Below, in pieces: positions 1 to 55,254 of a DNA stretch of 64,000 nt. The DNA comes from Mya arenaria (Eukaryota > Mollusca > Bivalvia > Myida > Myidae). The notes below the pieces were generated by a model. That model had not been told where the DNA came from. It ran no database searches and saw only the letters and a list, made by a program, of their open reading frames with translations. The first letter of the stretch is position 1. Every line of letters begins with the position of its first letter. A program made the translations under genes and the position numbers. The stretch is taken from positions 496,001-560,000 of the forward strand of contig NC_069135.1 of the NCBI RefSeq assembly GCF_026914265.1, written 5' to 3'.

Positions 1-1606
1 TGTAGGTCGGCTGGGCTACAATCGCCTATAAAAGTAACGGAAACTGTAGCTGTTTTGGCCAGGTAATCTTTTATAAATGTCTTGTAAGTAATTTTAGTAT
101 ATGTTCTTCACATTGGAAGAAAAACATAAATCTATCAAGCACAAAAATCACACAATATAAAGGAAGCAAGCAAGTTCATAATGAGCAAATTTATATACGT
201 TGTATTTGTACAAACCGTATGACTTCGTTCCCTAAAATGAATAACTATGATATAATGCATTGCACAAGTGTTCAAATTTTCTTGTGCTTGCTTTTATTGT
301 AGGAAGGAATTTAGCTTACCTTCGGAGAAATGCACGAGGATGTTGCCTGGTCATAGAGCTCTCCAGTGGGACACTGGACAACATACATTCGTTCGTACAG
401 TCCGCATTGGAGAAACTTTGATGCGTCGCTCGGGTGGGGGAAATTCAGGGCCTGCAGAGCGTTGTTTACGCAAGGGTTGGTCGCAACCTGCCATTGGCCT
501 GTGTGGTTCATGAATAGTAGTTGTATATATTAGTGATATTCTAAGATTTAAATTGAAACGTGTCAATATGTTGGTTGCACTTTTATAATATAATATTAGC
601 AGTTAAGGGCTCAGTTGGGTAAATGATTGCAAATGCCAAAATTATATAAGTATACCAGAAATGCATTATTCGTGAAATGTAACCATACTCATTTTTTCTG
701 AGCATGTAAAGATAATTCAGCTCCCATCGTTCACATATAATAAAACAATGAACATACATAATTATGGACGACATCCCTTTGGTGTATTACAATCCTATAA
801 TATAGTAGTGTATACTTACAAGATGTGCGGGTGAGCGTTGATCCAGGCAGGACGATGCTTCGGTCCGCATGCTCTATTACAAGGAAAAGGATTCAAATTA
901 AACACTTGCATATATTCATAAATAAGTCAGATAAATCCAACACGGCAGGTCAATAAATTTTGGTACTGTTTTAATAAAAGATTGAATTTCAATTCTTTTA
1001 AATGAACTTAATTTAAGACATCTGATTGTGTACAGTATGTTCTTACTGGATTAAATAGTGTTTTACAGTGTGACTTCCACGTAAGTAAATCAGTCAAATG
1101 TTCTAAAGGCACACTGGTGAAAACCAAGCATCCACTAAGCGAGACACAGGACGCCACAAGATAACAGTGAAAGAAACAAATTAGAGTTATTCATCAAAAT
1201 TAGGTTTACATTGTAAATGTTTATTTGTTTTTCACAATATCTCGATCTTACACGTTTTACAACAATTATCACAAAGCCCAATTTAAATATGTCAGCCGCA
1301 TTGGAACTAGCACAGCTTCAAATAAAACTAACATATCAAACCTAATAACGATGTTAACCTAAATTAACTGTACATGCAACAACCAGATACAGACAACACA
1401 ATGAAATAATAAAAAATAAAGCTGAACAACAGACGTATATTGTAAGATACACTAATACACGGACATCTATCATACACAACCGAAATACTAGCTATAATTA
1501 TGTTTATATGTTTTATACTCTTACCCTGATCAGTGTCCGGCACGGTGGCAGCCTGCACAAGACCACACAAGACTCCTACACACGTGAGAAACAAGACAGA
1601 ATTCAT
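1..1606 (-). CDS. G1: secreted triple-CBM14 (peritrophin-A) protein, A type, 3' part outside window
   Basis: Exons on the minus strand: exon 1 1525-1606 (ATG at 1606-1604), exon 2 820-873, exon 3 320-498, and the first 25 bases of exon 4 at 1-25. The rest of exon 4 and exon 5 lie beyond the left edge. Exon 1 encodes a signal peptide, MNSVLFLTCVGVLCGLVQA, then ATVPDTDQ. Exon 2 adds EHADRSIVLPGSTLTRTS. Exon 3 encodes the first CBM14 domain, with four cysteines spaced C-x21-C-x10-C-x12-C. Donors are GTAAGA, GTAAGT and GTAAGC; acceptors all end in AG; phases are 1, 1, 0. A longer reading frame from 1630 starts at TTG, so the ATG at 1606, with A at -3, is the better start. No disruption is visible in the part shown. 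Confidence 0.78.
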
Positions 1607-1677
1607 TCTGGAGAGGAAGAATTGGATCAAGATGTCCTGTTTTAAACAAGTGTAGCAGGCAGAACCGTACGCAGCTA

Positions 1678-1684
1678 TTTTATA
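1678..1684 (-). promoter_or_regulatory. TATA box of G1
   Basis: TATAAAA on the minus strand, 72-78 bp upstream of the ATG. Transcription would be expected to start about 30 bp downstream, near 1650, giving a leader of roughly 45 nt. The motif and its spacing are the same in all seven copies. Confidence 0.75.
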
Positions 1685-6243: not shown

Positions 6244-6428
6244 TTGGAATTCGTGTAAGGCAGGATGTTGTTGCCTGATTGAAGAGTGCTCCAGCGGGAC
6301 ACTGGATGATGAACAAATCCGTACAGTCCGCACTAGAGGCACTAGGCGGCGAAGCTCGTTTGGCGCCCGGAGGTTCAGGCCTTGCAAAGCGTTGTTTACG
6401 TAAGGGTAAGTCGCTACCTGCCACTGAC
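6244..6428 (-). pseudogene. Relic of CBM14 exon 3 (A spacer, copy 1)
   Basis: The minus strand still aligns with the gene's exon 3: QWQVAT, then VNNALQ, and in a different frame an intact CBM14 tail with C-x12-C spacing (QCPAGALFNQATTSC). The frame changes mid-domain, the first domain cysteine is tyrosine, and no GT donor remains at the 3' side. The flanking intron sequences on both sides are also recognisable, so this is the remnant of a gene copy, not a retrocopy. No signal exon or later domain exon was found next to it. Confidence 0.75.
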
Positions 6429-8042
6429 CTGTGAGAGTCACTCACATGGTAATTTTAAACATTGGTATTATAAGATTTCCCTGTTAACGTGTATGTATGA
6501 TGCTTGCATGCACATGGTTTTAGCAGTAACGGGTTCAGCTGGAAAAAAGACTTCAGATACCGAATGAATCAACCAGAAATGCCTTATTCATAACATATAA
6601 CATTGTAAACATATAATTGACTTTACATGTACGTAGAGATTGAGGATATTAATTATGTTTATAACCACTCAATGCTACAGAACTGGTGATACATGATGTA
6701 CGGAAGAGAGTGGCCACAGGCATGTCGATATTTCACCTGGTGTCATTATAACTATGAAAGAAATAGCTTGTTTCCATACCGCATTATATTATAATAGAAT
6801 TGCTAGTAACCAAATGATATACTTCTGTTTACAAACAAAACAAAACAAACTCAAGCACCCGCTGTATTGCTACCGATAATATACAGTAGATCGTTATCTT
6901 TCTAGTTAATTAATAATACTTTTGCTGAACATGGAGTTTGGATGATAATTGCCCCAGTGGGAATACTAATTACCTGAGGGCTTTATCCTCAATAATACAT
7001 ATGTTATGTCATTTGTCAATGATAGTCAAATAATACCGTGCAACATTATTTGAAATAAAAACAGCAAACTTTTTCTCACGTGTTGTCGGAATAAGACGGC
7101 AATAGTTCCTATCTTCAATTATTTCTAGTTTTTACATCGTCTGATTTTGCCGTTCATTTCAGTATGTGAGCACAATGTTATTAAGTGTGTTCTCATCACG
7201 TCTGCTTCACACAACGGCTTATTTACATCTCTCCGCACACAGGCAAGTGACGTCAGCCCTTGATGCTCACACAGGTCAAATAATGCACTCGCACCCACCC
7301 CCTGTTTCTTCTGTTTGTCTGAATAATACATATGTGTCTATGAAAAAGTTGAAATACTCGATGAGTTCTTACTCAATTTTTCAATGACCACGCAAAGGTG
7401 AAAAGCCCAATACTACTTATGATTATATTTTGATGGTTGTTAAATAGTATAATGACTTAAAGTAGTATCTTCATGATTAAGTTTTTACTTCAGGTCATCT
7501 TACTGACCTAGATTACAACCTCATTGACACATTATCAACGCAAACTCTGACACACGAAATGTGTATCGTTAGAGTTGTATAAGGTGGACTTTTCTCAAAA
7601 AGCGACATTCTTAATAAAAGCCATTTCATTGGAGGAAATGTAGGTATCGTTCTAAGTAGTGTTCTTGTCCTGTAGCACTGAAGACAAATAGTAGCAGCAT
7701 TCTATAAATTCAATGAGGGTATCTTTACGGTAAAATGTTTATATGAAAAAAAAAATGAATTTCTGAAGAGAAACAATATATGCAGTGAATCGGACGAACG
7801 GGATATTTATGAAGTGTGGCCATTTCTGTGTGTTTGTCTCTCGTTAATTGTGTGTTGAACCATGTGATGTAACACAAACTCACATTAACCTTTACATTGT
7901 TCTGCATACTAGACTTCTTGCACCTGTTACAGATTGGCTTAAGTTGATAGTAGATGTGTTCAGCTATTTATTAGAATAATGAAGAACTTTAAGGATAACC
8001 AATCAATGTATTTAATAATAAGACTAAAGCTTTAAGCATGCA

Positions 8043-8128: not shown

Positions 8129-10423
8129 CTATCCTGAAAAGTTTGTCTGTCCATTGAGTGTGATTGAGGCGAGCTGGGAAGCGCACGTCTCCAAGTACTG
8201 GTTCCACACGAGACCAGAGGGGCACCTCTGGACGAAAGCGTTTCCTTGTAGGTCACACTGGATGAACTTGGTTGGATCGGGGTGGGAGAAAAACAGGGCC
8301 TGAGCGCTTATGGCTTGAGCGGTACACGGGTTAGCACCGTTCAAAAACCCTGCAAATACGCAGTCATTTTCGTTCTTTAATACAAATTGACATAATCTGA
8401 TGATTTTTTTTTTTAATTTAACTGAAATGTATGTAAATAAAGTTGTTTTAAGTAAAATGATATTTCTATAAAAAAAGTTTGACGTCCGCACCGCTTATGC
8501 TACTTTATTTAGGATAGCAAATCTGTTTTATCGGATTTAAACCTTTGAGAGTCCAGTTACTTATTTCCCTTTGTTCTTAAAACTTGCTTTTAGAAACTAC
8601 CTGTGACTGCAGCCAAATAACCAGGGTTCGCCACACCGCCTTGTAGTGTGTACACACACGATTGCCTGTTCTGGTCCCAGATGAGCTGATCAGGGCAGGT
8701 GATCACGCGAGCATTTCCGGCAGCGTCGCACTGGATGAATTGTTTGTTGCTATTCGCAACAGAGAAGAATATCCGGCCTGCTTGGAGGCTCTGAGCTGTG
8801 CATGGACTCGGAATGCCGAGAGAGGCGATGTAGGTCGGCTGGGCTACAATTGCCTATAAAAGTAACGGAAGCTGTACGGTGTGTATGTTTTGGCCAGGTA
8901 AACTTTAATACATGTCTTGTAAGTAATTTTAGTATATGTTCTTCACATTGGAACAAGAACATAAATCTATCAAGCACAAAAGTCACACGAAATAAAAGAA
9001 GAAAGCAGGTTCATAATGAGCAAATTTAAGTACGTTGATTTTTTACAAACCGTATTACTTCGTTCCCGAAAATGAATAGCTATGATATATTGCATTGCAC
9101 AAGTGTTCAAATTTTGTTGGCTTTTATTGTAGGAATGAGTTTAGCTTGCCTTTGGAGTAATGCATGAGGATGTTGCCTGGTCATAGAGCTCTCCATTGGG
9201 ACACTGGACAACATACATTCGTTCGTACAGTCCGCATTGGAGAAACTTTGATGCGTCGCTCGGGTGGGGGAAATTCAGGGCCTGCAGAGCGTTGTTTACG
9301 CAAGGGTTGGTCTCCACCTGCCACTGGCCTATGAGGTTCATGAATGGTAATTGTATATATTTGTGACATTCTAAGATTTAAATTAAAACGTGTAAATACG
9401 CTGGTTCCACTCATAGAATATTAGCAGATAGGGGCTCATAAGATTGCAAATACCAAAATAATACTAGTATACCAGAAATGCATTATTCGTGAAATCTAAC
9501 CATACTCATATGTTTCAAGTATGTAAAGAAAATTCAGCGTCCATTGTACACATATAATAAAACAATAAACATACATATTTATGGACGACATTGTTTAAGT
9601 GTATTACAATCCTATAATACAATACCGTATACTTACAAGATGTGCGGTAGTGGGTTGATCCAGGCAGGATGATGCTTCGGTCCGCGTGCTCTATTTCAAA
9701 GAAAAGGATTCAAATTAAACACTTGCATGTAATCATAAATAAGTCAGATAAACCCAACACGGCAGAGCATTTCATATTGGTACTGTTTTAATAAAAGATT
9801 GAATATTCCTTTTTGAACAAAATTAATTTAATTGAAGACTTCTGATTTTGTACAGTATGTTACTAAAGTAAATGATATAGTACAGTATTACTTTCACGTA
9901 AGGACTATTCATTCAGTCAAATGTTCTAAAGGCACACCAAAAAAACAAGCATCCACTAAGGGAGACACAGGACGCCACAAGATAACAGTGAAAGAAACAA
10001 ATTAGCGTTATTCATCAAAATTAGGTTTACTTTGTAAATCTGTGTTATTTTTTTTCAAAATATCTCAATCTTTCACGTGTTACAACATTTATCCAGACCG
10101 CAAAATGGAATGTGTCAGCCTTATTAGAGCAAGCACAGCTTGAAAAAACGGAATCAAACCTAATAACCATGTTAAACTAAATTGAATGTATATGCAACGA
10201 CCAAATACAGACAACACAAGGAAATAAATAAATGAAAACTGAACAACAGACGTATGATGTAAGATGCACCTATACACAGACATGTATCATACACAGCCGA
10301 AATACTAGCTATAATTATGTTTATATGTTTTATACTCTTACCCTGATCATTGTCCGGCACGGTGGCAGCCTGCACAAGACCACACAGGACTCCTACACAC
10401 GTGAGAAACAAGACAGAATTCAT
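8129..10423 (-). CDS. G2: secreted triple-CBM14 (peritrophin-A) protein, B type, intact
   Basis: Exons: 10342-10423, 9637-9690, 9150-9328, 8601-8853 and 8129-8349, with stop TAG at 8131-8129. The coding length is 789 bp (262 residues) and intron phases are 1, 1, 0, 1. The product has a 19-residue signal peptide, an 8-residue spacer, an 18-residue linker and three CBM14 domains, one per exon 3, 4 and 5. Cysteine spacing is C-x21-C-x10-C-x12-C, C-x23-C-x10-C-x12-C and C-x22-C-x10-C-x12-C. Tyr or Trp sits in the LxYD/LIWD/LVWN position where the family has its chitin-contacting aromatic. CBM14 proteins bind chitin outside the cell, as in peritrophic matrix, cuticle or shell matrix; which applies here is unknown. 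Intron 3 has a GC donor (AAG|GCAAGC). The C-terminus TNFSG includes a possible N-glycosylation site. It also encodes NDQ where the other copies have TDQ. Confidence 0.87.
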
Positions 10424-14898: not shown

Positions 14899-15081
14899 TA
14901 GCCATTGGTATAAGGCAGGATGTTGTTGCTGATTGCAGAGTGCTCCAGCGGGACACTGGATAATGAACAAATCCGTACAGTCCGCACTGGAGGAACTAGG
15001 CGGCGAAGCTTGTTTGGCGTCCGGACGTTCAGGCATTGCAAAACGTTGTTCACGCAAGGGTAGTCGCTACCTGTCACTAAC
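14899..15081 (-). pseudogene. Relic of CBM14 exon 3 (B spacer, copy 1)
   Basis: Homologous to the relic in A spacers and to exon 3. Residues QCPAGALCNQ remain in one frame and PCVNNVLQCLN in another, so the domain is frame-broken. It also differs from the two other B relics by a one-base deletion near its 5' end. Confidence 0.72.
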
Positions 15082-16162: not shown

Positions 16163-18469
16163 CTATCCCGATAAGTTTGTCTGTCCAGTGAGTGTGAATG
16201 AGGCCAGCTGGGAAGCGCACGTCTCCAAGTACTGGTTCCACACGAGACCAGACGGGCACCTCTGGACGAAAGCGTTCCCTTGCAGGTCACACTGGATGAA
16301 CTTGGTTGGATCGGGGTGCGAGAAGAACAGGGCCTGAGCGCTGATGGCCTGGGCGGTACACGGATTAGCGCCGTTCAAAAAACCTGCAAAAACGCAGTCA
16401 TTTTGTTCTTTAATACAAATTGACATAAACTGTTGATGTTTTGAATTTAACTGAAATGTATGTAAACGGGGCTATTAAAAGCAAAATGATATTTCTATAA
16501 AAGTTTGACGACCGCACCGCTTATTCTCCTTTATTTAGATAACAAATCTGTCTTATCGGATAAAGACCTCTAAGAGTCCAATAACTTATTTCCATTTTTT
16601 CGTAAAACTTGGCTTCAGAAGCTACCTGTGTACTGCAAGAAGATAACCAGGGTTCGCCACACCGCCTTGAAGTGTGTACACACACGATTGCCTGTTCTGG
16701 TCCCAGATGAGCTGGTCAGGGCAGGTGATCACGCGGGCAATACCGGCAGCGTCGCACTGGATGAATTGTTTGTTGCTATTCGCAACGGAGAAGAATATCC
16801 GGCCTGCTTGGAGGTTCTGAGCTGTGCATGGGCTCGGAATGCCGAGAGAGGCGATGTAGGTCGGCTGGGCTACAATCGCCTATAAAAGTAACGGAAACTG
16901 TAGCTGTTTTGGCCAGGTAATCTTTTATACATGTCTTGTAAGTAATTTTAGTATATGTTCTTCACATTGGAAGAAAAACATAAATCTATCAAGCACAAAA
17001 ATCACACAATATAAAGGAAGCAAGCAAGGTTCATAATGAGCAAATTTATATACGTTGTATTTGTACAAACCGTATGACTTCGTTCCCGAAAATGAATAAT
17101 TATGATATAATGCATTGCACAAGTGTTCAATTTTCTTGTGCTTGCTTATTATTGTAGGAAGGAATTTAGCTTACCTTCGGAGAAATGCACGAGGATGTTG
17201 CCTGGTCGATAGAGCTCTCCAGTGGGACACTGGACAACAGTACATTCGTTCGTACAGTCCCGCATTGGAGAAACTTTGATGCGTCGCTCGGGTGGGGGAA
17301 ATTCAGGGCCTGCAGAGCGTTGTTTACGCAAGGGTTGGTCGCAACCTGCCATTGGCCTGTGTGGTTCATGAATAGGTAGTTGTATATATTAGTGATATTC
17401 TAAGATTTAAATTGAAACGTGTCAATATGTTGGTTGCACTTTTATAATATAATATTAGCAGTAAGGGGCTCAGTTGGGTAAATGATTGCAAATAGCCAAA
17501 ATTATATAAGTATACCAGAAATGCATTATTCGTGAAATGTAACCATACTCATTTTTTCTGAGCATGTAAAGATAATTCAGCTCCCATCGTTCACATATAA
17601 TAAAACAATGAACATACATAATTATGGACGACATCCCTTTGGTGTATTACAATCCTATAATACAGTAGTGTATACTTACAAGATGTGCGGGTGAGCGTTG
17701 ATCCAGGCAGGACGATGCTTCGGTCCGCATGCTCTATTACAAGGAAAATGATTCAAATTAAACACTTGCATGTATTCATAAATGAAGTCAGATAAATCCA
17801 ACACGGCAGGTCAATAAATTTTGGTACTGTTTTAATAAAAGATTGAATTTTAATTCTTTTAAATGAACTTAATTTAAGACATCTGATTGTGTACAGTATG
17901 TTCTTACTGGATTAAATAGTGTTATACAGTAGTGACTTCCACGTAAGTAAATCAAGTCAAATGTTCTAAAGGCACACTGGTGAAAACCAAGCATCCACTA
18001 AGCGAGACACAGGACGCCACAAGATAACAGTGAAAGAAACAAATTAGAGTTATTCATCAAAATTAGGTTTACATTGTAAATGTTTATTTGTTTTTCACAA
18101 TATCTCGATCTTACACGTTTTACAACAATTATCACAAAGCCCAATTTAAATATGTCAGCCGCATTGGAGCTAGCACAGCTTGAAAAAAACTAACATATCA
18201 AACCTAATAACTATGTTAACCTAAATTAACTGTACATGCAACAACCAGATACAGACAACACAAGGAAATAAAAAAAATCGAAGCTGAACAACAGACGTAT
18301 ATTGTAAGGATACACTAATACATGGACATCTATCATACACAACCGAAATACTAGCTATAATTATGTTTATATGTTTAATACTCTTACCCTGATCAGTGTC
18401 CGGCACGGTGGCAGCCTGCACAAAACCACACAAGACTCCTACACACGTGAGAAACAAGACAGAATTCAT
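16163..18469 (-). CDS. G3: triple-CBM14 protein, A type, with single-base insertions
   Basis: Exons: 18388-18469, 17680-17733, 17175-17356, 16626-16879 and 16163-16383. Exons 1, 2 and 5 are normal. Exon 3 is 182 bp instead of 179 because of three separate one-base insertions (near 17209, 17240 and 17261). They restore the frame overall but replace about 18 residues in the middle of domain 1 and remove its third cysteine. Exon 4 has one extra base beside its donor (near 16629), which puts exon 5 out of frame. Many more one-base insertions occur in the introns of this copy, so consensus errors are as likely as true gene decay. The signal peptide has GF where others have GL. Intron 3 has a normal GT donor. 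G3 is either a young pseudogene or an intact gene read badly. Confidence 0.68.
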
Positions 18470-27174: not shown

Positions 27175-27245
27175 TCTGGAGAGGAGGAAATCGAGCAAGA
27201 TGTCCCGTGTAAAACGAGTGTAGCAGGCTTAACCGTTTGCAGATC

Positions 27246-32845: not shown

Positions 32846-32851
32846 TTTATT
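32846..32851 (-). terminator. Polyadenylation signal AATAAA of G5
   Basis: AATAAA on the minus strand, 88 bp past the G5 stop codon. Confidence 0.63.
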
Positions 32852-32938
32852 GTAACCAAATGTTGATGGTACAAGAAAGTGTTCTTTGGTCGTTGTCCGG
32901 TTTAGGGCCACAAATGTCTATAACTTTTCAAGAACCAC

Positions 32939-35235
32939 CTATCCCGATAAGTTTGTCTGTCCAGTGAGTGTGAATGAGGCCAGCTGGGAAGCGCACGTCT
33001 CCAAGTACTGGTTCCACACGAGACCAGACGGACACCTCTGGACGAAAGCGTTCCCTTGCAGGTCACACTGGATGAACTTGGTTGGATCGGGGTGCGAGAA
33101 GAACAGGGCCTGAGCGCTGATGGCCTGGGCGGTACACGGATTAGCGCCGTTCAAAAAACCTGCAAAAACGCAGTCATTTTGTTCTTTAATACAAATTGAC
33201 ATAAACTGTTGATGTTTTGAATTTAACTGAAATGTATGTAAACGGGGCTATTAAAAGCAAAATGATATTTCTATAAAAGTTTGACGACCGCACCGCTTAT
33301 TCTCCTTTATTTAGGATAACAAATCTGTCTTATCGGATAAAGACCTCTAAGAGTCCAATAACTTATTTCCATTTTTTCGTAAAACTTGGCTTCAGAAGCT
33401 ACCTGTGACTGCAAGAAGATAACCAGGGTTCGCCACACCGCCTTGAAGTGTGTACACACACGATTGCCTGTTCTGGTCCCAGATGAGCTGGTCAGGGCAG
33501 GTGATCACGCGGGCAATACCGGCAGCGTCGCACTGGATGAATTGTTTGTTGCTATTCGCAACGGAGAAGAATATCCGGCCTGCTTGGAGGCTCTGAGCTG
33601 TGCATGGGCTCGGAATGCCGAGAGAGGCGATGTAGGTCGGCTGGGCTACAATCGCCTATAAAAGTAACGGAAACTGTAGCTGTTTTGGCCAGGTAATCTT
33701 TTATAAATGTCTTGTAAGTAATTTTAGTATATGTTCTTCACATTGGAAGAAAAACATAAATCTATCAAGCACAAAAATCACACAATATAAAGGAAGCAAG
33801 CAAGTTCATAATGAGCAAATTTATATACGTTGTATTTGTACAAACCGTATGACTTCGTTCCCGAAAATGAATAACTATGATATAATGCATTGCACAAGTG
33901 TTCAAATTTTCTTGTGCTTCCTATTATTGTAGGAAGGAATTTAGCTTACCTTTGGAGAAATGCACGAGGATGTTGCCTGGTCGTAGAGCTCTCCAGTGGG
34001 ACACTGGACAACGTACATTCGTTCGTACAGCCCGCATTGGAGAAACTTTGATGCGTCGCTCGGGTGGGGGAAATTCAGGGCCTGCAGAGCGTTGTTTACG
34101 CAAGGGTTGGTCGCAACCTGCCATTGGCCTGTGTGGTTCATGAATAGTAGTTGTATATATTAGTGATATTCTAAGATTTAAATTGAAACGTGTCAATATG
34201 TTGGTTGCACTTTTATAATATAATATTAGCAGTTAAGGGCTCAGTTGGGTAAATGATTGCAAATGCCAAAATTATATAAGTATACCAGAAATGCATTATT
34301 CGTGAAATGTAACCATACTCATTTTTTCCGAGCATGTAAAGATAATTCAGCTCCCATCGTTCACATATAATAAAACAATGAACATACATAATTATGGACG
34401 ACATCCCTTTGGTGTATTACAATCCTATAATACAGTAATGTATACTTACAAGATGTGCGGGTGAGCGTTGATCCAGGCAGGACGATGCTTCGGTCCGCAT
34501 GCTCTATTACAAGGAAAATGATTCAAATCAAACACTTGCATATATTCATAAATAAGTCAGATAAATCCAACACGGCAGGTCAATAAATTTTGGTACCGTT
34601 TTAATAAAAGATTGAATTTTAATTCTTTTAAATGAACTTAATTTAAGACATCTGATTGTGTACAGTATGTTCTTACTGGATTAAATAGTGTTATACAGTG
34701 TGACTTCCACGTAAGTAAATCAGTCAAATGTTCTAAAGGCACACTGGTGAAAACCAAGCATCCACTAAGCGAGACACAGGACGCCACAAGATAACAGTGA
34801 AAGAAACAAATTAGAGTTATTCATCAAAATTAGGTTTACATTGTAAATGTTTATTTGTTTTTCACAATATCTCGATCTTACACGTTTTACAACAATTATC
34901 ACAAAGCCCAATTTAAATATGTCAGCCGCATTGGAACTAGCACAGCTTCAAATAAAACTAACATATCAAACCTAATAACGATGTTAACCTAAATTAACTG
35001 TACATGCAACAACCAGATACAGACAACACAACGAAATAAAAAAAATAAAGCTGAACAACAGACGTATATTGTAAGATACACTAATACACGGACATCTATC
35101 ATACACAACCGAAATACTAGCTATAATTATGTTTATATGTTTTATACTCTTACCCTGATCAGTGTCCGGCACGGTGGCAGCCTGCACAAGACCACACAAG
35201 ACTCCTACACACGTGAGAAACAAGACAGAATTCAT
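32939..35235 (-). CDS. G5: secreted triple-CBM14 (peritrophin-A) protein, A type, intact
   Basis: Exons: 35154-35235, 34450-34503, 33950-34128, 33403-33655 and 32939-33159; 789 coding bases, phases 1, 1, 0, 1. Introns are 650, 321, 294 and 243 bp, all with GT donors. Domain 2 has the A-type AGIARV and ends GYLLAVTG; the C-terminus is QTNLSG, again with a possible N-glycosylation site (NLS). The gene straddles dimers 2 and 3: exons 4 and 5 lie mostly in the B half of copy 2 and exons 1-3 in the A half of copy 3. Its exons and introns are essentially identical to those of G7. Confidence 0.87.
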
Positions 35236-35306
35236 TCTGGAGAGGAAGAATTGGATCAAGATGTCCTGTTTTAAACAAGTGTAGCAGGCAGAACCGTACG
35301 CAGCTA

Positions 35307-35313
35307 TTTTATA
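35307..35313 (-). promoter_or_regulatory. TATA box of G5
   Basis: TATAAAA on the minus strand, 72 bp upstream of the ATG at 35235. Confidence 0.75.
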
Positions 35314-38300
35314 CCTACCGTTAAGGAAGCAATGTTGATGAAGGTAAGGGTGGACTCACGATTGTTGTGGAAACCTTTTAAAATTGTGCCTTTGGTCATA
35401 GACATTTCCGTATTTCATTCCCAGCTTTGTTTACCTTGTCAAAACAAATGTCTGTCATTTCTGTTGGAAACGAGTTTGCTGAGTGAAAACCACAAAAGGT
35501 TGTATCCTTTTAGTTGTTTTAAATACAATTAACCAAATCGTTTAATGGAAGTCCGCTTTTTATTTGATTGTTAAAACAAAGGGTTTTTGCGGGTAGCAAC
35601 AGGTTCAAAAACAAACAATATAAAGGCGTTAGTGGTTTTATCCTGATATTTAAAATGAATGACTCAAACATTAACGGAACACCTCAGACATGTAAATTTT
35701 GTACAATGCATTTATGTCACGAAAAGGCTATTTGGAAATCACTTGATAACCAATTTCTTTAGGGTTTAATAGTTTTATTAGGCATGTTTCAAGAACATCA
35801 GTGAACGAAAAACATTTTAAGGCGATCAGGAGTAGACTTAGAATACTGACTTAATTTGTCAAACCTTCAACGAATCCTGCCATGGACTCCATGCCTCTTT
35901 TAAGACCAATTAAAAATCTTAACGAACTAAATACAATGTTTGCTTTTAATTAAGTAATTTTGCTTTATTCGGAAATAATGATACAGCCACCAGCCTTCTA
36001 TACGCTGGATTCAATTTGTATATTTTTCTTTCCTATAGCAGGAGCTCAAACTGGATATTATGTCGTATACACAGAAACACAGCTTGTTATCAACAGTTAT
36101 AAACTTTTCTAATTTGGAAAATGGGCATTATAACCAAACACCTAACCTCTGAAAATAACTTCCTACAAATCAACGGTATGTTTTATGTCTTTGGCGTTTA
36201 CACTGTGCAATTAAACAAGGTTTATGTTTAAACTTTTGGCTATAAAGCTTGTTTCTGAAGCTTTTCATATACATATTTGTATTGAAATCATTTGATGCAA
36301 GTAGCAATATACCTGATACTTACTTGTATCAAATCGGACGTTTGACAGTTAATTGAACGTTATAAAACGCTTCACCCAACCAACGAGAAGTAAACACCTT
36401 ACTTGCTTCTTAAAAATATGTTCTTACAATTCATAAAGAGGTCATTCAAACAGAAAGGTAGTTCACTTATCAATCATATACTTGTCCATATTCTATTGAA
36501 ATTATGTATACACAAAGCAATCACCCACGACTGTAGCTTACTTGTGGGCCATTTTAACAAGTATAGTTGTAAAAGGCATGAGCGCCAGTGTTAAGTACAA
36601 TATTGCTAATGTGCAAGTCCGCGGAGAAATTCCGGACAAAAAAGTCTATTGAATAATCAAGCACTATTATTTATTTCTAATAAGGTCTCGAGTACCACTG
36701 AAAATAAATCTTTCTTTTTTCTTTCGCTGGAAATAACAGTTTAATCGGCTTGGAGGTTCGGCTTATTGTAAGGATTCGATGAATTGCACTGTTACTCCAT
36801 GTGCTTTCGCTAACCGAGCAAGTTACCAGATTGTTATATCCTGATTTTGAAGTTTCGAAATAAAGTCTGTGTTTATACAAAGGTTCAATAAGAAATTATA
36901 TTTCCATTTCATCAATCTCGACCCTGTCTGATGTATGTTTCTAGTGAAATTACATAGCGCCTCTGCACATTATGAACAATAACATTATTGTTTTGTTCGA
37001 CATGTTGCATTTAATAAAGTAATAAATGTTTAAACGTTCCTTAATCTTGAAGATTGAAAGAAAAGTTTGCTTTATTTGAACGGTTTTATTCCTTTTCTTT
37101 ATTGATGAAAAATCTTAGAAAAAAAATAATTCCTGAAAAAATGAAATGCAAGGCGATTGCAATTTCAATGACATTTGAAAGAAAACAGTTAACGAGATGT
37201 CAAAAATGGTAAAACCTACGGTTTGGTACAGCGTTTGCATTTGTCATGATGATATTCCTATTTGTCCTAAATAAGAGTTTTACAAGACTGTTATGACCAA
37301 AATAGGTCAGAAAATGCTGACATTAGATGATAAGAGTTTTATACTAATCCACAGTTTTCAATGCATAACAAGAGCGATATCTATTGTATAAACTGATTTT
37401 GAGTAATAGGACTTTGCTAAACTCTGAATGGATTCAGGAAATGGCTAGACAAATCTGACTTTCATATATGCACTGTAATCACATTGCTTTATGGGCCTAT
37501 TATGCATTCTTGTACCGTACGATGCTTACAACGAAGAGGACATTCAGTTGTTTGTTCAAGTACTTCCGGACTATTATTGAACTTTTAATTGTTAGAGTCT
37601 ATCCGTCAGAGTCGTTGTGTAATATATAAACTCATTATTACTTAATACATGATAATATAAGATGAACTGGTAAATATTCCGATACACATTAATAATAAGG
37701 TGTTCATGTTCTTTTAATGTTCCATATGGGACTCGGGTAAATGATCATTCAACGGTTTGAGTCGGACACTTAATACAATAATTTCAGTTTCAATTGTTTT
37801 TCTGTATAAAATTTCCTCTAAAGGTATTGATTTTGAATGTTTGTCAAAAAATGAGCAGAAACACATAGCATTACACATGTTTTTTATCTCTTAAACATTT
37901 TATAGAGGCATACTAAAAAAAGAAATTAATTATTATTGAATTTTGAATGTTTGTACGAAACCTTATTCTAGGCTAGCCGCTTATACGTGTTTCTTCTGGT
38001 ATAACTGTTGGCCAGGGAGTACAACTTGCACCTTGTACCCCCCCATGACTACTTAATACCACAGCTGATTTCTGTCTTCCTCGGCATCTTAGTTTGTAGA
38101 CACACGCTTGTTTGAACAGTTGTCACTGTTTGTAAAATTAAAAGGTGGTTCACTTCTGTGTTATCATTACTTCACAGGAGTGTTTTGCTAATGCTTTCTT
38201 TTCATGAATCTTTGGAAAAAAAATAATGTGTGGCGTCATTTTGTTAAATTATACAGAAAGTAAATATAAGTTTGATGTTTATTGTTGAAATGTATGTTAT

Positions 38301-39884: not shown

Positions 39885-40069
39885 TTGGAATTCGTGCAAG
39901 GCAGGATGTTGTTGCCTGATTGAAGAGTGCTCCAGCGGGACACTGGATGATGAACAAATCCATACAGTCCGCACTAGAGGCACTAGGCGGCGAAGCTCGT
40001 TTGGCGCCCGGAGGTTCAGGCCTTGCAAAGCGTTGTTCACGTAAGGGTAAGTCGCTACCTGCCACTGAC
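39885..40069 (-). pseudogene. Relic of CBM14 exon 3 (A spacer, copy 3)
   Basis: As at 6244-6428, which it resembles more than the copy 2 relic does. The domain is frame-broken and lacks a donor. Confidence 0.72.
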
Positions 40070-41692
40070 CTGTGAGAGTCACTCACATGGTAACTTTAAA
40101 CATTGGTATTATAAGATTTCCCTGTTAACGTGTATGTATGATGCTTGCATGCACATGGTTTTAGCAGTAACGGGTTCAGCTGGAAAAAAGACTTCAGATA
40201 CCGAATGAATCAACCAGAAATGCCTTATTCATAACATATAACATTGTAAACATATAATTGACTTTAAATGTACATAGAGATTGAGGATATTAATTATGTT
40301 TATAATCACTCAATGCTACAGAAATGGTGTTACATGATGTACGGAAGAGAGTGGCCACAGGCATGTCGATATTTCACCTGGTGTCTTTATAACTATGAAA
40401 GAAATAGCTTGTTTCCATACCGCTTTCCATTTTAAGGTAAGTTAATAGAATTGCTAGTAACCAAATGATATACTTCTATTTACCAACAAAATAAAACAAA
40501 CTCAAGCACCCGCTGCATTGCTGCCGATTATATACAGTAAATCGTTATCTTTCTAGTTAATTAATAATACTTTTGCTGAACATGGAGTTTGGATGATAAT
40601 TGCCCCAGTGGGAATACTAATTACCTGAGGGCTTTATCCTCAATAAAACATATGTTTTGTCATTTGTCAATGATAGTCAAATAATATCGTGCAACATTAT
40701 TTGAAATAAAAACAGCAAACTTTTTCTCACGTGTTGTCGGAATAAGACGGCAATAGTTCCTGTCTTCAATTATTTCTAGTTTTTACATCGTCTGATTTTG
40801 CCGTTCATTTCAGTATGTGAGCACAATGTTATTAAGTGTGTTCTCATCACGTCCTGCTTCACACAACGGCTTATTTACATCTCTCCGCACACAGGCAAAT
40901 GACGTCAGCACTTGATGTTCACACAGGTCAAATAATGTACTCGCACCCACCCCCTGTTTCTTCTGTTTGTCTGAATAATACATATGTGTCTATGAAAAAG
41001 TTGAAATACTCGATGAGTTCTTACTCAATTTTTCAATGACCACGCAAAGGTGAAAAGCCCAATACTACTAATGATTATATTTTGATGGTTGTTAAATAGT
41101 ATAATGACTTAAAGTAGTATCTTCATGATTAAGTTTTTACTTCAGGTCATCTTACTGACCTAGATTACAACCTCATTGACACATTATCAACGCAAACTCT
41201 GACACACGAAATGTGTATCGTTAGAGTTGTATAAGGTGGACTTTTCTCAAAAAGCGACATTCTTAATAAAAGCCATTTCATTGGAGGAAATGTAGGTATC
41301 GTTCTAAGTAGTGTTCTTGTCCTGTAGCACTGAAGACAAATAGTAGCAGCATTCTATAAATTCAATGAGGGTATCTTTACGGTAAAATGTTTATATGAAA
41401 AAAAAATGAATTTCTGAAGAGAAACAATATATGCAGTGAATCGGACGAACGGGATATTTATGAAGTGTGGCCATTTCTGTATGTTTGTCTCTCGTTAATT
41501 GTGTGTTGAACCATGTGATGTAACACAAACTCACATTAACCTTTACGTTGTTGTGCTTACTAGACTTCTTGCACATGTTACAGATTGGCTTAAGTTGATA
41601 GTAGATGTGTTCAGCTATTTATTAGAATAATGAAGAACTTTAAGGATACCAATCAATGTATTTAATAATAAGACTAAAGCTTTAAGCATGCA

Positions 41693-41778: not shown

Positions 41779-44058
41779 CTATCCCGAAAAGTTTGTCTGT
41801 CCAGTGAGTGTGATTGAGGCGAGCTGGGAAGCGCACGTCTCCAAGTACTGGTTCCACACGAGACCAGACGGGCACCTCTGGACGAAAGCGTTTCCTTGCA
41901 GGTCACACTGGATGAACTTGGTTGGATCGGGGTGCGAGAAGAACAGGGCCTGAGCGCTGATGGCTTGAGCAGTACACGGGTTAGCACCGTTCAAAAACCC
42001 TGCAAATTCGCAGTCATTTTCGTTCTTTAATACAAATTGACATAATCTGATGATTTTTTTTAATTTAACTGAAATGTATGTAAATAAACTTGTTTTAAGC
42101 CAAATGATATTTCTATAAACAAGTTTGACGTCCGCACCGCTTATGCTACTTTATTTAGGATAGCAAATCTCTTATCGGATTCAGACCTTTGAGAGTCCAT
42201 TTACTTATTTCCCTTTGTTCTTAAAACTTGCTTTTAGAAACTACCTGTGACTGCAGCCAGATAACCAGGGTTCGCCACACCGCCTTGTAGTGTGTACACA
42301 CACGATTGCCTGTTCTGGTCCCAGATGAGCTGATCAGGGCAGGTGATCACGCGAGCATTTCCGGCAGCGTCGCACTGGATGAATTGTTTGTTGCTATTCG
42401 CAACAGAGAAGAATATCCGGCCTGCTTGGAGGCTCTGTGCTGTGCATGGACTCGGAATGCCGAGAGAGGCGATGTAGGTCGGCTGGGCTAACAATCGCCT
42501 ATAGAAGTAACGGAAACTGTAGCTGTTTTTGCCAGGTAATCTTTTATACATGTCTTGTAAGTAATTTTAGTATATGTTCTTCACATTGGAAGAAAACATA
42601 AATCTATCAAGCACAAAAATCACACAATATAAAGGAAGCAAGCAGGTTCATAATGAGCAATTTATATACGTTGTATTTGTACAAACCGTATGACTTCGTT
42701 CCCGAAAATGAATAGCTATGATATATTGCATTGCACAAGTGTTCAAATTTTGCTGGCTTTTATTGTAGGAAGGAAGTTTAGCTTGCCTTTTGAGTAATGC
42801 ATGAGGATGTTGCCTGGTCATAGAGCTCTCCAGTGGGACACTGGACAACATACATTCGTTCGTACAGTCCGCATTGGAGAAACTTTGATGCGTCGCTCGG
42901 GTGAGGGAAATTCAGGGCCTGCAGAGCGTTGTTTACGCAAGGGTTGGTCGCCACCTGCAACTGGCCTATGAGGTTCATGAATGGTAATTGTATATATTTG
43001 TGACATTCTAAGATTTAAATTGAAACGTGTAAATACGCTGGTTCCACTCATATAATATTAGCAGATAGGGGCTCATAAGATTGCAAATACCAAAATAATA
43101 CTAGTATACCAGAAATGCATTATTCGTGAAATCTAACCATACTCATATGTTTCAAGCATGTAAACAAAATCAGCTTCCATTGTACACATATAATAAAACA
43201 ATAAACATACATATTTATGGACGACATTGTTTAAGTTTATTACAATCCTATAATACAGTACCGTACTACTTACAAGATGTGCGGGTGAGCGTTGATCCAG
43301 GCAGGACGATGCTTCGGTCCGCATGCTCTATTTCAAAAATAAGGATTCAAATTAAACACTTGCATGTAATCATAAATAAGTCAGATAAACCCAACACGGC
43401 AGGGCATTTAATATTGGTACTGTTTTAATAAAAGATTGAATATTCTTTTTTGAACAAAATTAATTTAATTGAAGACTTCTGATTTTGTACAGTATGTTAC
43501 TAAAGTAAATAATATAGTACAGTATTACTTCCACGTAAGGACTATTCAATCAACCAAATGTTCTAAAGGCACGCCAAAAAAAACAAGCATCCACTAAGGG
43601 AGACACAGGACGCCACAAGATAACAGTGAAAGAAACAAATTAGCGTTATTCATCAAAATTAGGTTTACTTTGTAAACCTGTGTTATTTGTTTTCAAAATA
43701 TCTCAATCTTTCACGTGTTACCACATTTATCCAGAGCGCAAAATGGAATGTGTCAGCCTTATTAGAGCAAGCACAGCTTGAAAAAAACGGAATCAAACCT
43801 AATAACCATGTTAAACTAGATTGAATGTATAGGCAACGACCAGATACAGACAACACAAGGAAATCAATGAAAACTGAACAACAGACGTATGATGTAAGAT
43901 GCACCTATACACAGACATATATCATACACAGCCGAAATACTAGCTATAATTATGTTTATATGTTTTATACTCTTACCCTGATCAGTGTCCAGCACGGTGA
44001 CAGCCTGCACAAGACCACACAGGACTCCTACACACGTGAGAAACAAGACAGAATTCAT
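41779..44058 (-). CDS. G6: triple-CBM14 protein, B type, with a one-base insertion in exon 4
   Basis: Exons: 43977-44058, 43274-43327, 42787-42965, 42245-42498 and 41779-41999. Exon 4 is 254 bp instead of 253: one extra base at about 42490 (ctaacaatc where others have ctacaatc) shifts the frame within its first codons, and a stop would follow inside domain 2. All other exons are normal, and the sequence around is nearly identical to G4. It may be a real null allele or an assembly error. Intron 3 has the GC donor. Exon 5 joins two lineages: its 3' end carries copy 1-like variants and its 5' end copy 2-like variants, switching between about 41,815 and 41,860. Confidence 0.72.
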
Positions 44059-48562: not shown

Positions 48563-48745
48563 AGCCATTGGTATAAGGCAGGATGTTGTTGCTGATTGCA
48601 GAGTGCTCCAGCGGGACACTGGATAATGAACAAATCCGTACAGTCCGCACTGGAGGAACTAGGCGGCGAAGCTTGTTTGGCGTCCGGAAGTTCAGGCATT
48701 GCAAAACGTTGTTCACGCAAGGGTAAGTCGCTACCTGTCACTAAC
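48563..48745 (-). pseudogene. Relic of CBM14 exon 3 (B spacer, copy 3)
   Basis: Identical in form to the relic at 31681-31862; frame-broken exon 3 homologue. Confidence 0.72.
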
Positions 48746-49729
48746 CTGTGAGATTCACTCACATTGTAATTTTAAATATTGGGATTCTAAGATTTCCCTT
48801 TGTATGTGTATGTATGCTGCTTGCATGTACATGGTATTGGCAGTAAGGGGTTCAGCTGGGAATAAGATTTTACATACCGAATGAATTAACCAGAAATGCC
48901 TTTTTCATAACTCATAACAATAGTCAACTCTTTGCATGGTTATGAGTATATTTAGCTACCATTGCACACAATAATTGACTATTAATGTACATAGAGATTG
49001 AGGAAATCAAGTGTGTTTATTAAAATTCAAATGTACAGAACTGGTGTTACATGATGTACGGACTAGAGTGGCTCCAGTCATGTTGATATTTCACCCAGTC
49101 TTTATAACTATGAAAGAAATAACTTGTTTCCATATCGCTTTCCATTTTAGGCCCAATACTACTTATGATTATATTTTGATGATTGTTAAATAGTATAATG
49201 ACTTAAATTAATATATTCATGATTAAGTTTTTACTTCAGGTCATCTAACAGACTAAAATTACAACCTCACTGACACATTATCAACGCAAACTCTGATACA
49301 CGGAGTGTTTATCGAGTGAGTGGTATAAGGTGGACCTTTGTCAAAAAGTGACATTCTTAATAAAAGCCATTTCATTGGAGGAAATGTAGGTATCGTTCTA
49401 AGTAATGATCTTGTCCTGTAGTACTGAAGACAAACAGTAGTGGCATTCTATAAATACAATGAGGGTATCTTTACGATAAAATGTTTAAATGAAAGAAAAA
49501 TGAATTTCTGAAGAAGAAACAATGTGTGCAGTGAATCGGACGAACGATATATCTGTAAGATATGGCCATTTCTACGTTTAAAGTTGTTATCCTTACTAGT
49601 CTTCTTGCACATGTTACAGATTGGCTCAAATTGATATTTGATGTGTTCAGCTATTTATTAGAATATTGAAAAACTTTAAAGATAACCAATCAATTTATTT
49701 TATAATAAGACTAAAGGTTTAAGCATGCA

Positions 49730-49822: not shown

Positions 49823-52119
49823 CTATCCCGATAAGTTTGTCTGTCCAGTGAGTGTGAATGAGGCCAGCTGGGAAGCGCACGTCTCCAAGTACTGGTTCCA
49901 CACGAGACCAGACGGACACCTCTGGACGAAAGCGTTCCCTTGCAGGTCACACTGGATGAACTTGGTTGGATCGGGGTGCGAGAAGAACAGGGCCTGAGCG
50001 CTGATGGCCTGGGCGGTACACGGATTAGCGCCGTTCAAAAAACCTGCAAAAACGCAGTCATTTTGTTCTTTAATACAAATTGACATAAACTGTTGATGTT
50101 TTGAATTTAACTGAAATGTATGTAAACGGGGCTATTAAAAGCAAAATGATATTTCTATAAAAGTTTGACGACCGCACCGCTTATTCTCCTTTATTTAGGA
50201 TAACAAATCTGTCTTATCGGATAAAGACCTCTAAGAGTCCAATAACTTATTTCCATTTTTTCGTAAAACTTGGCTTCAGAAGCTACCTGTGACTGCAAGA
50301 AGATAACCAGGGTTCGCCACACCGCCTTGAAGTGTGTACACACACGATTGCCTGTTCTGGTCCCAGATGAGCTGGTCAGGGCAGGTGATCACGCGGGCAA
50401 TACCGGCAGCGTCGCACTGGATGAATTGTTTGTTGCTATTCGCAACGGAGAAGAATATCCGGCCTGCTTGGAGGCTCTGAGCTGTGCATGGGCTCGGAAT
50501 GCCGAGAGAGGCGATGTAGGTCGGCTGGGCTACAATCGCCTATAAAAGTAACGGAAACTGTAGCTGTTTTGGCCAGGTAATCTTTTATAAATGTCTTGTA
50601 AGTAATTTTAGTATATGTTCTTCACATTGGAAGAAAAACATAAATCTATCAAGCACAAAAATCACACAATATAAAGGAAGCAAGCAAGTTCATAATGAGC
50701 AAATTTATATACGTTGTATTTGTACAAACCGTATGACTTCGTTCCCGAAAATGAATAACTATGATATAATGCATTGCACAAGTGTTCAAATTTTCTTGTG
50801 CTTCCTATTATTGTAGGAAGGAATTTAGCTTACCTTTGGAGAAATGCACGAGGATGTTGCCTGGTCGTAGAGCTCTCCAGTGGGACACTGGACAACGTAC
50901 ATTCGTTCGTACAGCCCGCATTGGAGAAACTTTGATGCGTCGCTCGGGTGGGGGAAATTCAGGGCCTGCAGAGCGTTGTTTACGCAAGGGTTGGTCGCAA
51001 CCTGCCATTGGCCTGTGTGGTTCATGAATAGTAGTTGTATATATTAGTGATATTCTAAGATTTAAATTGAAACGTGTCAATATGTTGGTTGCACTTTTAT
51101 AATATAATATTAGCAGTTAAGGGCTCAGTTGGGTAAATGATTGCAAATGCCAAAATTATATAAGTATACCAGAAATGCATTATTCGTGAAATGTAACCAT
51201 ACTCATTTTTTCCGAGCATGTAAAGATAATTCAGCTCCCATCGTTCACATATAATAAAACAATGAACATACATAATTATGGACGACATCCCTTTGGTGTA
51301 TTACAATCCTATAATACAGTAATGTATACTTACAAGATGTGCGGGTGAGCGTTGATCCAGGCAGGACGATGCTTCGGTCCGCATGCTCTATTACAAGGAA
51401 AATGATTCAAATCAAACACTTGCATATATTCATAAATAAGTCAGATAAATCCAACACGGCAGGTCAATAAATTTTGGTACCGTTTTAATAAAAGATTGAA
51501 TTTTAATTCTTTTAAATGAACTTAATTTAAGACATCTGATTGTGTACAGTATGTTCTTACTGGATTAAATAGTGTTATACAGTGTGACTTCCACGTAAGT
51601 AAATCAGTCAAATGTTCTAAAGGCACACTGGTGAAAACCAAGCATCCACTAAGCGAGACACAGGACGCCACAAGATAACAGTGAAAGAAACAAATTAGAG
51701 TTATTCATCAAAATTAGGTTTACATTGTAAATGTTTATTTGTTTTTCACAATATCTCGATCTTACACGTTTTACAACAATTATCACAAAGCCCAATTTAA
51801 ATATGTCAGCCGCATTGGAACTAGCACAGCTTCAAATAAAACTAACATATCAAACCTAATAACGATGTTAACCTAAATTAACTGTACATGCAACAACCAG
51901 ATACAGACAACACAACGAAATAAAAAAAATAAAGCTGAACAACAGACGTATATTGTAAGATACACTAATACACGGACATCTATCATACACAACCGAAATA
52001 CTAGCTATAATTATGTTTATATGTTTTATACTCTTACCCTGATCAGTGTCCGGCACGGTGGCAGCCTGCACAAGACCACACAAGACTCCTACACACGTGA
52101 GAAACAAGACAGAATTCAT
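49823..52119 (-). CDS. G7: secreted triple-CBM14 (peritrophin-A) protein, A type, intact; last gene of the array
   Basis: Exons: 52038-52119, 51334-51387, 50834-51012, 50287-50539 and 49823-50043; 262 residues with no break. Sequence and splice sites match G5 almost base for base. This is the gene nearest the right end of the array: about 3.1 kb of normal A-type upstream sequence remains beyond its TATA box before the array stops at about 55,254. Any enhancer beyond that point would differ from those of the internal copies. All donors are GT. Confidence 0.87.
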
Positions 52120-52190: not shown

Positions 52191-52197
52191 TTTTATA
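52191..52197 (-). promoter_or_regulatory. TATA box of G7
   Basis: TATAAAA on the minus strand, 72 bp upstream of the ATG at 52119. Confidence 0.75.
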
Positions 52198-55100
52198 CCT
52201 ACCGTTAAGGAAGCAATGTTGATGAAGGTAAGGGTGGACTCACGATTGTTGTGGAAACCTTTTAAAATTGTGCCTTTGGTCATAGACATTTCCGTATTTC
52301 ATTCCCAGCTTTGTTTACCTTGTCAAAACAAATGTCTGTCATTTCTGTTGGAAACGAGTTGCTGAGTGAAAACCACAAAAGGTTGTATCCTTTTAGTTGT
52401 TTTAAATACAATTAACCAAATCGTTTAATGGAAGTCCGCTTTTTATTTGATTGTTAAAACAAAGGGTTTTGCGGTAGCAACAGGTTCAAAAACAAACAAT
52501 ATAAAGGCGTTAGTGGTTTTATCCTGATATTTAAAATGAATGACTCAAACATTAACGGAACACCTCAGACATGTAAATTTTGTACAATGCATTTATGTCA
52601 CGAAAAGGCTATTTGGAAATCACTTGATAACCAATTTCTTTAGGGTTTAATAGTTTTATTAGGCATGTTTCAAGAACATCAGTGAACGAAAAACATTTTT
52701 AAGGCGATCAGGAGTAGACTTAGAATACTGACTTAATTTGTCAAACCTTCAACGAATCCTGCCATGGACTCCATGCCTCTTTTAAGACCAATTAAAAATC
52801 TTAACGAACTAAATACAATGTTTGCTTTTAATTAAGTAATTTTGCTTTATTCGGAAATAATGATACAGCCACCAGCCTTCTATACGCTGGATTCAATTTG
52901 TATATTTTTCTTTCCTATAGCAGGAGCTCAAACTGGATATTATGTCGTATACACAGAAACACAGCTTGTTATCAACAGTTATAAACTTTTCTAATTTGGA
53001 AAATGGGCATTATAACCAAACACCTAACCTCTGAAAATAACTTCCTACAAATCAACGGTATGTTTTATGTCTTTGGCGTTTACACTGTGCAATTAAACAA
53101 GGTTTATGTTTAAACTTTTGGCTATAAAGCTTGTTTCTGAAGCTTTTCATATACATATTTGTATTGAAATCATTTGATGCAAGTAGCAATATACCTGATA
53201 CTTACTTGTATCAAATCGGACGTTTGACAGTTAATTGAACGTTATAAAACGCTTCACCCAACCAACGAGAAGTAAACACCTTACTTGCTTCTTAAAAATA
53301 TGTTCTTACAATTCATAAAGAGGTCATTCAAACAGAAAGGTAGTTCACTTATCAATCATATACTTGTCCATATTCTATTGAAATTATGTATACACAAAGC
53401 AATCACCCACGACTGTAGCTTACTTGTGGGCCATTTTAACAAGTATAGTTGTAAAAGGCATGAGCGCCAGTGTTAAGTACAATATTGCTAATGTGCAAGT
53501 CCGCGGAGAAATTCCGGACAAAAAAGTCTATTGAATAATCAAGCACTATTATTTATTTCTAATAAGGTCTCGAGTACCACTGAAAATAAATCTTTCTTTT
53601 TTCTTTCGCTGGAAATAACAGTTTAATCGGCTTGGAGGTTCGGCTTATTGTAAGGATTCGATGAATTGCACTGTTACTCCATGTGCTTTCGCTAACCGAG
53701 CAAGTTACCAGATTGTTATATCCTGATTTTGAAGTTTCGAAATAAAGTCTGTGTTTATACAAAGGTTCAATAAGAATTATATTTCCATTTCATCAATCTC
53801 GACCCTGTCTGATGTATGTTTCTAGTGAAATTACATAGCGCCTCTGCACATTATGAACAATAACATTATTGTTTTTGTTCGACATGTTGCATTTAATAAA
53901 GTAATAAATGTTTAAACGTTCCTTAATCTTGAAGATTGAAAGAAAAGTTTGCTTTATTTGAACGGTTTTATTCCTTTTCTTTATTGATGAAAAATCTTAG
54001 AAAAAAAATAATTCCTGAAAAAATGAAATGCAAGGCGATTGCAATTTCAATGACATTTGAAAGAAAACAGTTAACGAGATGTCAAAAATGGTAAAACCTA
54101 CGGTTTGGTACAGCGTTTGCATTTGTCATGATGATATTCCTATTTGTCCTAAATAAGAGTTTTACAAGACTGTTATGACCAAAATAGGTCAGAAAATGCT
54201 GACATTAGATGATAAGAGTTTTATACTAATCCACAGTTTTCAATGCATAACAAGAGCGATATCTATTGTATAAACTGATTTTGAGTAATAGGACTTTGCT
54301 AAACTCTGAATGGATTCAGGAAATGGCTAGACAAATCTGACTTTCATATATGCACTGTAATCACATTGCTTTATGGGCCTATTATGCATTCTTGTACCGT
54401 ACGATGCTTACAACGAAGAGGACATTCAGTTGTTTGTTCAAGTACTTCCGGACTATTATTGAACTTTTTAATTGTTAGAGTCTATCCGTCAGAGTCGTTG
54501 TGTAATATATAAACTCATTATTACTTAATACATGATAATATAAGATGAACTGGTAAATATTCCGATACACATTAATAATAAGGTGTTCATGTTCTTTTAA
54601 TGTTCCATATGGGACTCGGGTAAATGATCATTCAACGGTTTGAGTCGGACACTTAATACAATAATTTCAGTTTCAATTGTTTTTCTGTATAAAATTTCCT
54701 CTAAAGGTATTGATTTTGAATGTTTGTCAAAAAATGAGCAGAAACACATAGCATTACACATGTTTTTTATCTCTTAAACATTTTATAGAGGCATACTAAA
54801 AAAAGAAATTAATTATTATTGAATTTTTGAATGTTTGTACGAAACCTTATTCTAGGCTAGCCGCTTATACGTGTTTCTTCTGGTATAACTGTTGGCCAGG
54901 GAGTACAACTTGCACCTTGTACCCCCCATGACTACTTAATACCACAGCTGATTTCTGTCTTCCTCGGCATCTTAGTTTGTAGACACACGCTTGTTTTGAA
55001 CAGTTGTCACTGTTTGTAAAATTAAAAGGTGGTTCACTTCTGTGTTATCATTACTTCACAGGAGTGTTTTGCTAATGCTTTCTTTTCATGAATCTTTGGA

Positions 55101-55254
55101 AAAAAAATAATGTGTGGCGTCATTTTGTTAAATTATACAGAAAGTAAATATAAGTTTGATGTTTATTGTTGAAATGTATGTTATATGGCAAAGAAAGGGT
55201 TAGAGGATTGCATGCATAATGTAATTTCCGTACATATGTCGAATACTTTTTCAA
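52198..55254. other. Truncated A-type spacer upstream of G7
   Basis: Follows 35,314-38,369 with very few differences, then ends. It stops before the A-only segment and the exon 3 relic would occur. No gene recognised. Confidence 0.72.

Follow-up and report, generated by a model that had tools for sequence, protein, structure and literature searches.

It is well known that genes for small, abundant proteins can be amplified in tandem, and the locus described here, from the bivalve Mya arenaria, adds another case. In the fish antifreeze arrays, small-protein genes were likewise amplified in tandem, which has been read as adaptation through copy number, and assembly uncertainty is reported to be ubiquitous in these arrays and to affect their copy counts (PMC13032017). 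On the protein side, the closest described systems belong to the CBM14 family: EHEP of the sea hare Aplysia kurodai (PDB 8IN3), reported to be secreted, to have a mass of about 25 kDa and to consist of three CBM14 domains that surround a tannin pocket (PMC10619976, PMC5271319); Der p 23 (PDB 4ZCE), a short mite protein with a chain of 48-50 residues and a single CBM14 domain; and the mollusc shell matrix proteins Pif and BMSP, reported to carry CBM14 together with VWA (PMC11291548). The stretch analysed, called the window throughout, comprises 64,000 nucleotides of contig NC_069135.1 (C14:496001-560000, in an assembly of 1.216 Gb and 18 contigs), and as assembled it holds seven copies of a five-exon gene for a protein with three CBM14 domains, in two alternating types, A and B. 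We put at roughly 60% the probability that this is an array of amplified A/B dimers encoding a constrained protein, most likely yielding more of one secreted product. The antifreeze proteins are unrelated to this one, and the Mya array differs further in having an explicit two-type A/B dimer and in being known from its sequence alone. In searches limited to CBM14 or peritrophin expansions in molluscs, titles and abstract openings gave no account of it.

The seven genes lie head to tail, all on the minus strand and in the order A B A B A B A (A1, B1, A2, B2, A3, B3 and A4 from left to right), with start codons at 1606, 10423, 18469, 27174, 35235, 44058 and 52119. The spacings between these (8817, 8046, 8705, 8061, 8823 and 8061) give monomers of 8.05-8.82 kb and dimers of 16.75-16.88 kb. 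Self-BLAST of the window traces the tandem repeat from 1 to its right end at 55254, which is 3.1 kb upstream of the start codon of A4, and aligns 1-19945 with 33631-53596 at 97.3%, 3256-19945 with 19943-36714 at 95.5%, and 19943-38371 with 36884-55254 at 97.9%. A and B monomers are 85-88% identical over about 3.4-4.4 kb around each gene, against 95.5-97.9% between dimers, which is the pattern of a higher-order repeat. An earlier note on this DNA, made from its letters alone, had claimed at least seven copies head to tail within 55 kb, built of diverged monomers of about 8.0-8.8 kb joined in dimers of about 16.8 kb; the self-BLAST and the start codons bear out both claims. It had also said that the array runs out of the window, as it does: A1 crosses the left edge, and one more pair, c482 (type A) and c489 (type B), lies farther left. 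The comparison of the contig and its left flank with themselves, which the same note had proposed, returned the 16.8-kb A/B dimers but a shorter spacing, about 6.9 kb, for the left pair. At the sequence level c482 is about 95% identical to the A copies, and c489 is 91-93% identical to the B copies and 86% to the A copies.

The two-level A/B organization is recovered as well by a tree of the non-coding sequence, in which an A clade (c482, A1-A4, RA1 and RA2) and a B clade (c489, B1-B3, RB1 and RB2) each have bootstrap support of 100, RA1, RA2, RB1 and RB2 being the members of a second, inverted array considered below. Within these clades c482 and c489 are basal, as expected if dimers were the unit of amplification. 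The coding tree places c489 outside A+B (support 88), which the mixed A- and B-type sites of this copy may explain. Mixed tracts are also found in the B copies: exon 2 is A-type at 6/6 informative sites in B2, B3 and RB2, and intron 3 of B2 and B3 has 19 informative sites and ends in a run of 12 that are A-type; the sequence around these tracts is B-type. Growth of the array may be pictured as follows. A CBM14 gene and a dead neighbouring exon would have been duplicated together as an 8-kb monomer; two such monomers would have diverged into types A and B; the A+B dimer would then have been amplified, presumably by unequal crossing-over, with short gene-conversion tracts passing between the types; and purifying selection would have kept a nearly identical protein in both, so that the array could supply more of one extracellular product.

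The part of this picture that concerns selection comes from comparing A4 with two B copies. Between A4 and B1 there are 31 synonymous and 15 replacement differences (synonymous divergence per site, dS, 0.189; replacement divergence per site, dN, 0.025), and between A4 and B2 there are 25 and 9 (dS 0.147, dN 0.015); in both comparisons every exon group has a dN lower than its dS. In the same pairs introns 1, 2 and 4 are 84-87% identical, intron 3 90-96% and the exons 89-100%. Since introns 1, 2 and 4 thus differ by 13-16%, near dS, the likeness of the proteins (95% identity between A and B) is ascribed to selection and not to homogenization of the exons, and the counts support purifying selection on the protein between A and B. 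Among the A copies, A1 and A4 differ by 7 synonymous changes and no replacement, and A3 and A4 have zero coding differences.

The gene models are consistent throughout the window. B1 (8129..10423, minus strand, as are all that follow) has coding exons at 10423-10342, 9690-9637, 9328-9150, 8853-8601 and 8349-8129, of 82, 54, 179, 253 and 221 nt, with intron phases 1, 1, 0 and 1, a GC-AG intron 3 (donor at 9148-9149) and an open frame of 262 aa. Open frames of 262 aa are also found in B2 (24894..27174; exons 27174-27093, 26443-26390, 26082-25904, 25614-25362 and 25114-24894) and A3 (32939..35235; exons 35235-35154, 34503-34450, 34128-33950, 33655-33403 and 33159-32939), and A4 is open as well (49823..52119; exons 52119-52038, 51387-51334, 51012-50834, 50539-50287 and 50043-49823). 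A1 is cut by the window edge (1..1606; exons 1606-1525, 873-820, 498-320 and from 25 to beyond the edge), most of its exon 4 and all of its exon 5 lying farther left; with the left flank added, its 789-nt frame is open. In A2 (16163..18469; exons 18469-18388, 17733-17680, 17356-17175, 16879-16626 and 16383-16163) one-base insertions break the frame, and B3 (41779..44058; exons 44058-43977, 43327-43274, 42965-42787, 42498-42245 and 41999-41779) has a one-base insertion in exon 4. The five-exon gene of the earlier note therefore holds, its splice sites being found in 7/7 window copies. The further claim, that all visible promoters and poly(A) signals are preserved, stands for the signals: all seven have TATAAA at -78 and, no more than 170 bases from the stop codon, AATAAA or ATTAAA. 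It does not extend to the frames, two of which are interrupted as assembled. With its own TATA box and poly(A) signal, each window copy is a potential separate transcription unit.

For a wider comparison 17 copies were aligned: the seven of the window, six to its left and the four of the inverted array. Of these, 12 have an open frame (5/7 in the window), counting RB1, which has lost the usual stop codon, and c475, open at 795 nt; those not open are c455, c462, A2, B3 and RB2. In 16 of the 17 the intron borders of the five-exon model are intact, acceptors being AG and donors either GT or GC; c455 has two broken acceptors. The TATAAA hexamer is absent from c455 and c462. Read-through of intron 4 in the A copies was considered and is ruled out by stops in this intron of A1, A3, A4 and RA2. 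Two features separate the types. The intron-3 donor is GC in 6/6 B-type copies and GT in 7/7 A-type copies (older copies have GC in c455, c462 and c475 and GT in c447), and A and B have different leaders downstream of the TATA box. Both would suit distinct A and B products with divided roles, the dimer being kept because the two are needed; but proteins 95% alike, with dN below dS in every exon group of both A4 comparisons, weigh against this, and we consider such a division improbable.

Older relatives lie to the left of the window. Two have open frames (c447 and c475), one has a single stop (c462) and one is decayed, with several stops (c455); there are also a gene fragment at 469 kb and a plus-strand copy at 437 kb. 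Decay is visible inside the array too, since 6/6 window spacers hold a degenerate exon 3, that is, the exon of the first CBM14 domain, 1.1-1.8 kb downstream of the gene and on the minus strand: at 6254..6435 (frameshifted), 14906..15059 (containing a stop), 22958..23145 (decayed), 31686..31869 (containing stops), 39898..40076 (decayed) and 48569..48752 (containing stops). As spacers of either kind contain this dead exon, it was probably part of the ancestral monomer. The inverted array, 0.5 Mb away at C14:1049-1087.5 kb, has a decayed edge and holds four genes, alternating as A, B, A and B over 1055-1087 kb.

The surroundings of the two arrays contain repeats of several kinds. A dispersed element of about 2 kb, with inverted ends of about 290 bases, occupies 55850-57800, 600 bases past the end of the window array, and has dozens of genomic copies, mostly at 87-93% identity; a repeat of about 100 bases at 2549-2647, about 1 kb upstream of A1, recurs on many chromosomes at 86-92%. 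The right end of the inverted array abuts a young dispersed repeat (C14:1087.7-1089.9 kb; L025:7700-9900) with at least 31 other near-full-length copies at 95-99% among 40 scored candidates, 29 of the 31 being at 98-99%. Short-period local satellites lie at C14:563.5-567.0 kb and 1037.0-1043.0 kb, the former within a repeat that recurs at 1113.7-1120 kb. Rfam at gathering thresholds returned nothing within the window, and the first 1500 bases of C14 contain no telomere repeat. Searches of the genome with other families bear on the origin of the DNA. Egg-lysin and molluscan haemocyanin families gave no match, but neither did they in 14 control genomes, and these negatives carry no weight. The best match to a Lymnaea acetylcholine-binding protein was only 31% identical, so that Lymnaea is an improbable source. 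A muscle-myosin query assembled from three exons had its best PDB matches in 3i5f, 2ec6, 1dfk, 1dfl, 1b7t, 1kk7, 1qvi and 2os8, which are squid and scallop sequences, in support of a mollusc.

Several results weigh against the reading of a constrained array amplified for dosage. Among the B copies constraint appears weaker: B1 and B2 differ by 11 synonymous and 13 replacement changes (dS 0.062, dN 0.022); exons 1-3 account for 11 of these replacements, and dN is above dS both in exons 1-2 and in exon 3, which has no synonymous change, and dN also exceeds dS in exons 1-2 between c489 and B2. The GC donor might lower the output of the B copies, contrary to simple dosage; the frames of A2 and B3 are broken as assembled; and a long tract, 26022..36882, is nearly the same in dimer 2 as in dimer 3 (over its 10.9 kb the two differ by 2 substitutions and by 9 columns of indels), which may reflect either a very recent exchange or one sequence assembled twice. 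Moreover, neutral birth and death of genes under ordinary constraint yields the same dN/dS. On that account unequal crossing-over would add and remove copies, the young ones would be constrained as any gene is, and their number would itself be unselected. The decay of the older neighbours c455, c462 and the 469-kb fragment, the dead exons in every window spacer, the B1-B2 counts and the near-identity of dimers 2 and 3 all fit such an array. The lack of replacements between A1 and A4, and the intact TATA box and poly(A) signal of every window copy, are what would be expected of working copies, and this does not show that the number is selected. We judge the neutral account unlikely, but it bears directly on the step from constraint to dosage, which is one that we infer.

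The near-identical tract raises the separate issue of assembly. B3 and A4 lie in the counterpart of the tract that contains B2 and A3; outside the tract dimers 2 and 3 differ by several percent, and over the aligned gene region B3 differs from B2 by 20 mismatches and 9 indels. In A2, bins 17000-17999 hold 10 private one-base insertions against 2 private substitutions, and the excess of private one-base insertions runs through coding and non-coding sequence alike over 15500-19500, that is, A2 and its surroundings. The broken frame of A2 is thus probably a sequence error of the kind seen in unpolished reads and is no proof of a pseudogene; the single insertion in B3 is open to the same doubt. 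Elsewhere in the assembly, myosin-head exons occur as pairs of nearly equal score on one chromosome (for example C7 46.57-46.76 and 60.72-60.90 Mb, with others on C1, C2, C3 and C4), as do receptor-like exons on C12, C15 and C1, the members, paired by score, lying about 0.3-14 Mb apart. Retained haplotypes are one likely cause of such pairs, large segmental duplications another.

Taken together, the tract, the insertion burst and the paired exons could mean that part of the array is an artefact, a second haplotype or reads used twice, so that there would be, for instance, five genes and not seven, and no separate inverted array. However, within one contiguous stretch dimer 1 differs by 2.7% and 2.0% from dimers 2 and 3, and A differs from B by 12-15%. 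Nor do the flanks sampled on either side of the inverted array (29 kb on its left, 32.5 kb on its right) look like those of a plain haplotig. Compared with the sampled flanks of the left array they gave 84 match rows, 76 of which fell within the 563.0-567.5 kb satellite and were excluded, leaving 8; all that is shared is the satellite-bearing repeat and one 120-base repeat, and the inverted array as a plain haplotig is accordingly unsupported. An artefact of this partial kind seems to us somewhat unlikely, and amplified A/B dimers remain the preferred explanation.

The product of the gene has 262 aa. It begins with what, by eye, is a likely signal peptide; a short spacer comes next, and exons 3, 4 and 5 then each encode one of its three CBM14 domains. 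Pfam CBM_14 (PF01607) scores 76.1 bits over three stretches, against a gathering cut-off of 22.1, and single exons score 30.4-33 bits; it is the only family at E <= 1, no VWA or laminin-G domain being matched, in which the protein differs from Pif and BMSP, and a search of NCBIfam gave nothing. For the exon-5 domain a CBM14 fold is predicted: its model, from an alignment of 6 rows, has a mean predicted local distance difference test score (pLDDT) of 77.5, and its 12 best PDB matches by Foldseek are all of the CBM14 fold, at E 0.00085 to 0.19, one of them at E <= 0.001. This fold test covers the exon-5 domain only, domains 1 and 2 resting on Pfam. The classical peritrophin-A motif has six cysteines (CX15CX5CX9CX12CX5-9C; PMC10619976), whereas each domain here has four, positions 2 and 6 being absent from all three, so that none belongs to the classical six-cysteine subgroup. 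The same two cysteines are missing from the readable domains of paralogues at C14:344 kb (where one domain carries an additional cysteine at another position), 17.596 Mb and 51.93 Mb, and their absence is thus an apparent family trait. The exon 2/3 junction supplies a further cysteine, the thirteenth, which leaves the mature protein with an odd number of them and could give a disulfide-linked dimer.

These features bear on what the protein may do. The earlier note called the gene chitin-binding; the family and the fold agree, but the domains are a four-cysteine variant without cysteines 2 and 6, the pair that forms a disulfide in EHEP. Chitin binding is reported to be absent from both EHEP and Der p 23 (PMC10619976), and family membership therefore does not settle the matter; "chitin-binding" is used here as the name of the family and is putative as a function. 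Der p 23, the second-best Foldseek match of the exon-5 domain, likewise lacks the second cysteine in the alignment, its one domain standing against three in the Mya protein. The likeness to EHEP is closer in layout, with three domains and a mature mass calculated at 26.1 kDa (cleavage site assumed). EHEP is also the best PDB match by phmmer, co-linear over residues 48-246 at E 0.003, and is reported at above 4.4 micromolar in digestive fluid (PMC10619976), as might suit a polyphenol-binding digestive protein amplified for tannin-rich food. Yet the sequence match is weak and falls short of clear homology (the EHEP stretch alone gives E 0.29, a chitinase CBM14 follows closely at E 0.0062, and EHEP was not returned by the profile search), and the EHEP domains have six cysteines each. 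An EHEP-like digestive role is very unlikely. It is also highly unlikely that a secreted four-cysteine CBM14 family, with an unpaired extra cysteine able to link two molecules, gave up chitin binding, as EHEP did, and was amplified as A/B dimers to supply an abundant protein that captures polyphenols or glycans. If true, copy number would become a trait that can be counted and that is linked to diet or to secretion at a surface.

In any case, the best reading of the effect is dosage, that is, more of one protein that is probably secreted. Its place would be extracellular, with the lining or fluid of the gut, the matrix of shell or mucus, and defence as candidate roles, among which the resemblance to EHEP suggests polyphenol binding as a further candidate. 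Two lessons of the locus are more general. First, nested levels of duplication can be read in one place, from the gene with its dead exon, through the A/B dimer, to the inverted second array, and the copies are young enough for purifying selection to be separated from homogenization. Second, some units of a seemingly perfect array can stem from assembly, and caution is advised. If the individual copies are expressed, as their signals would allow, copy number in Mya arenaria becomes a testable dosage trait.

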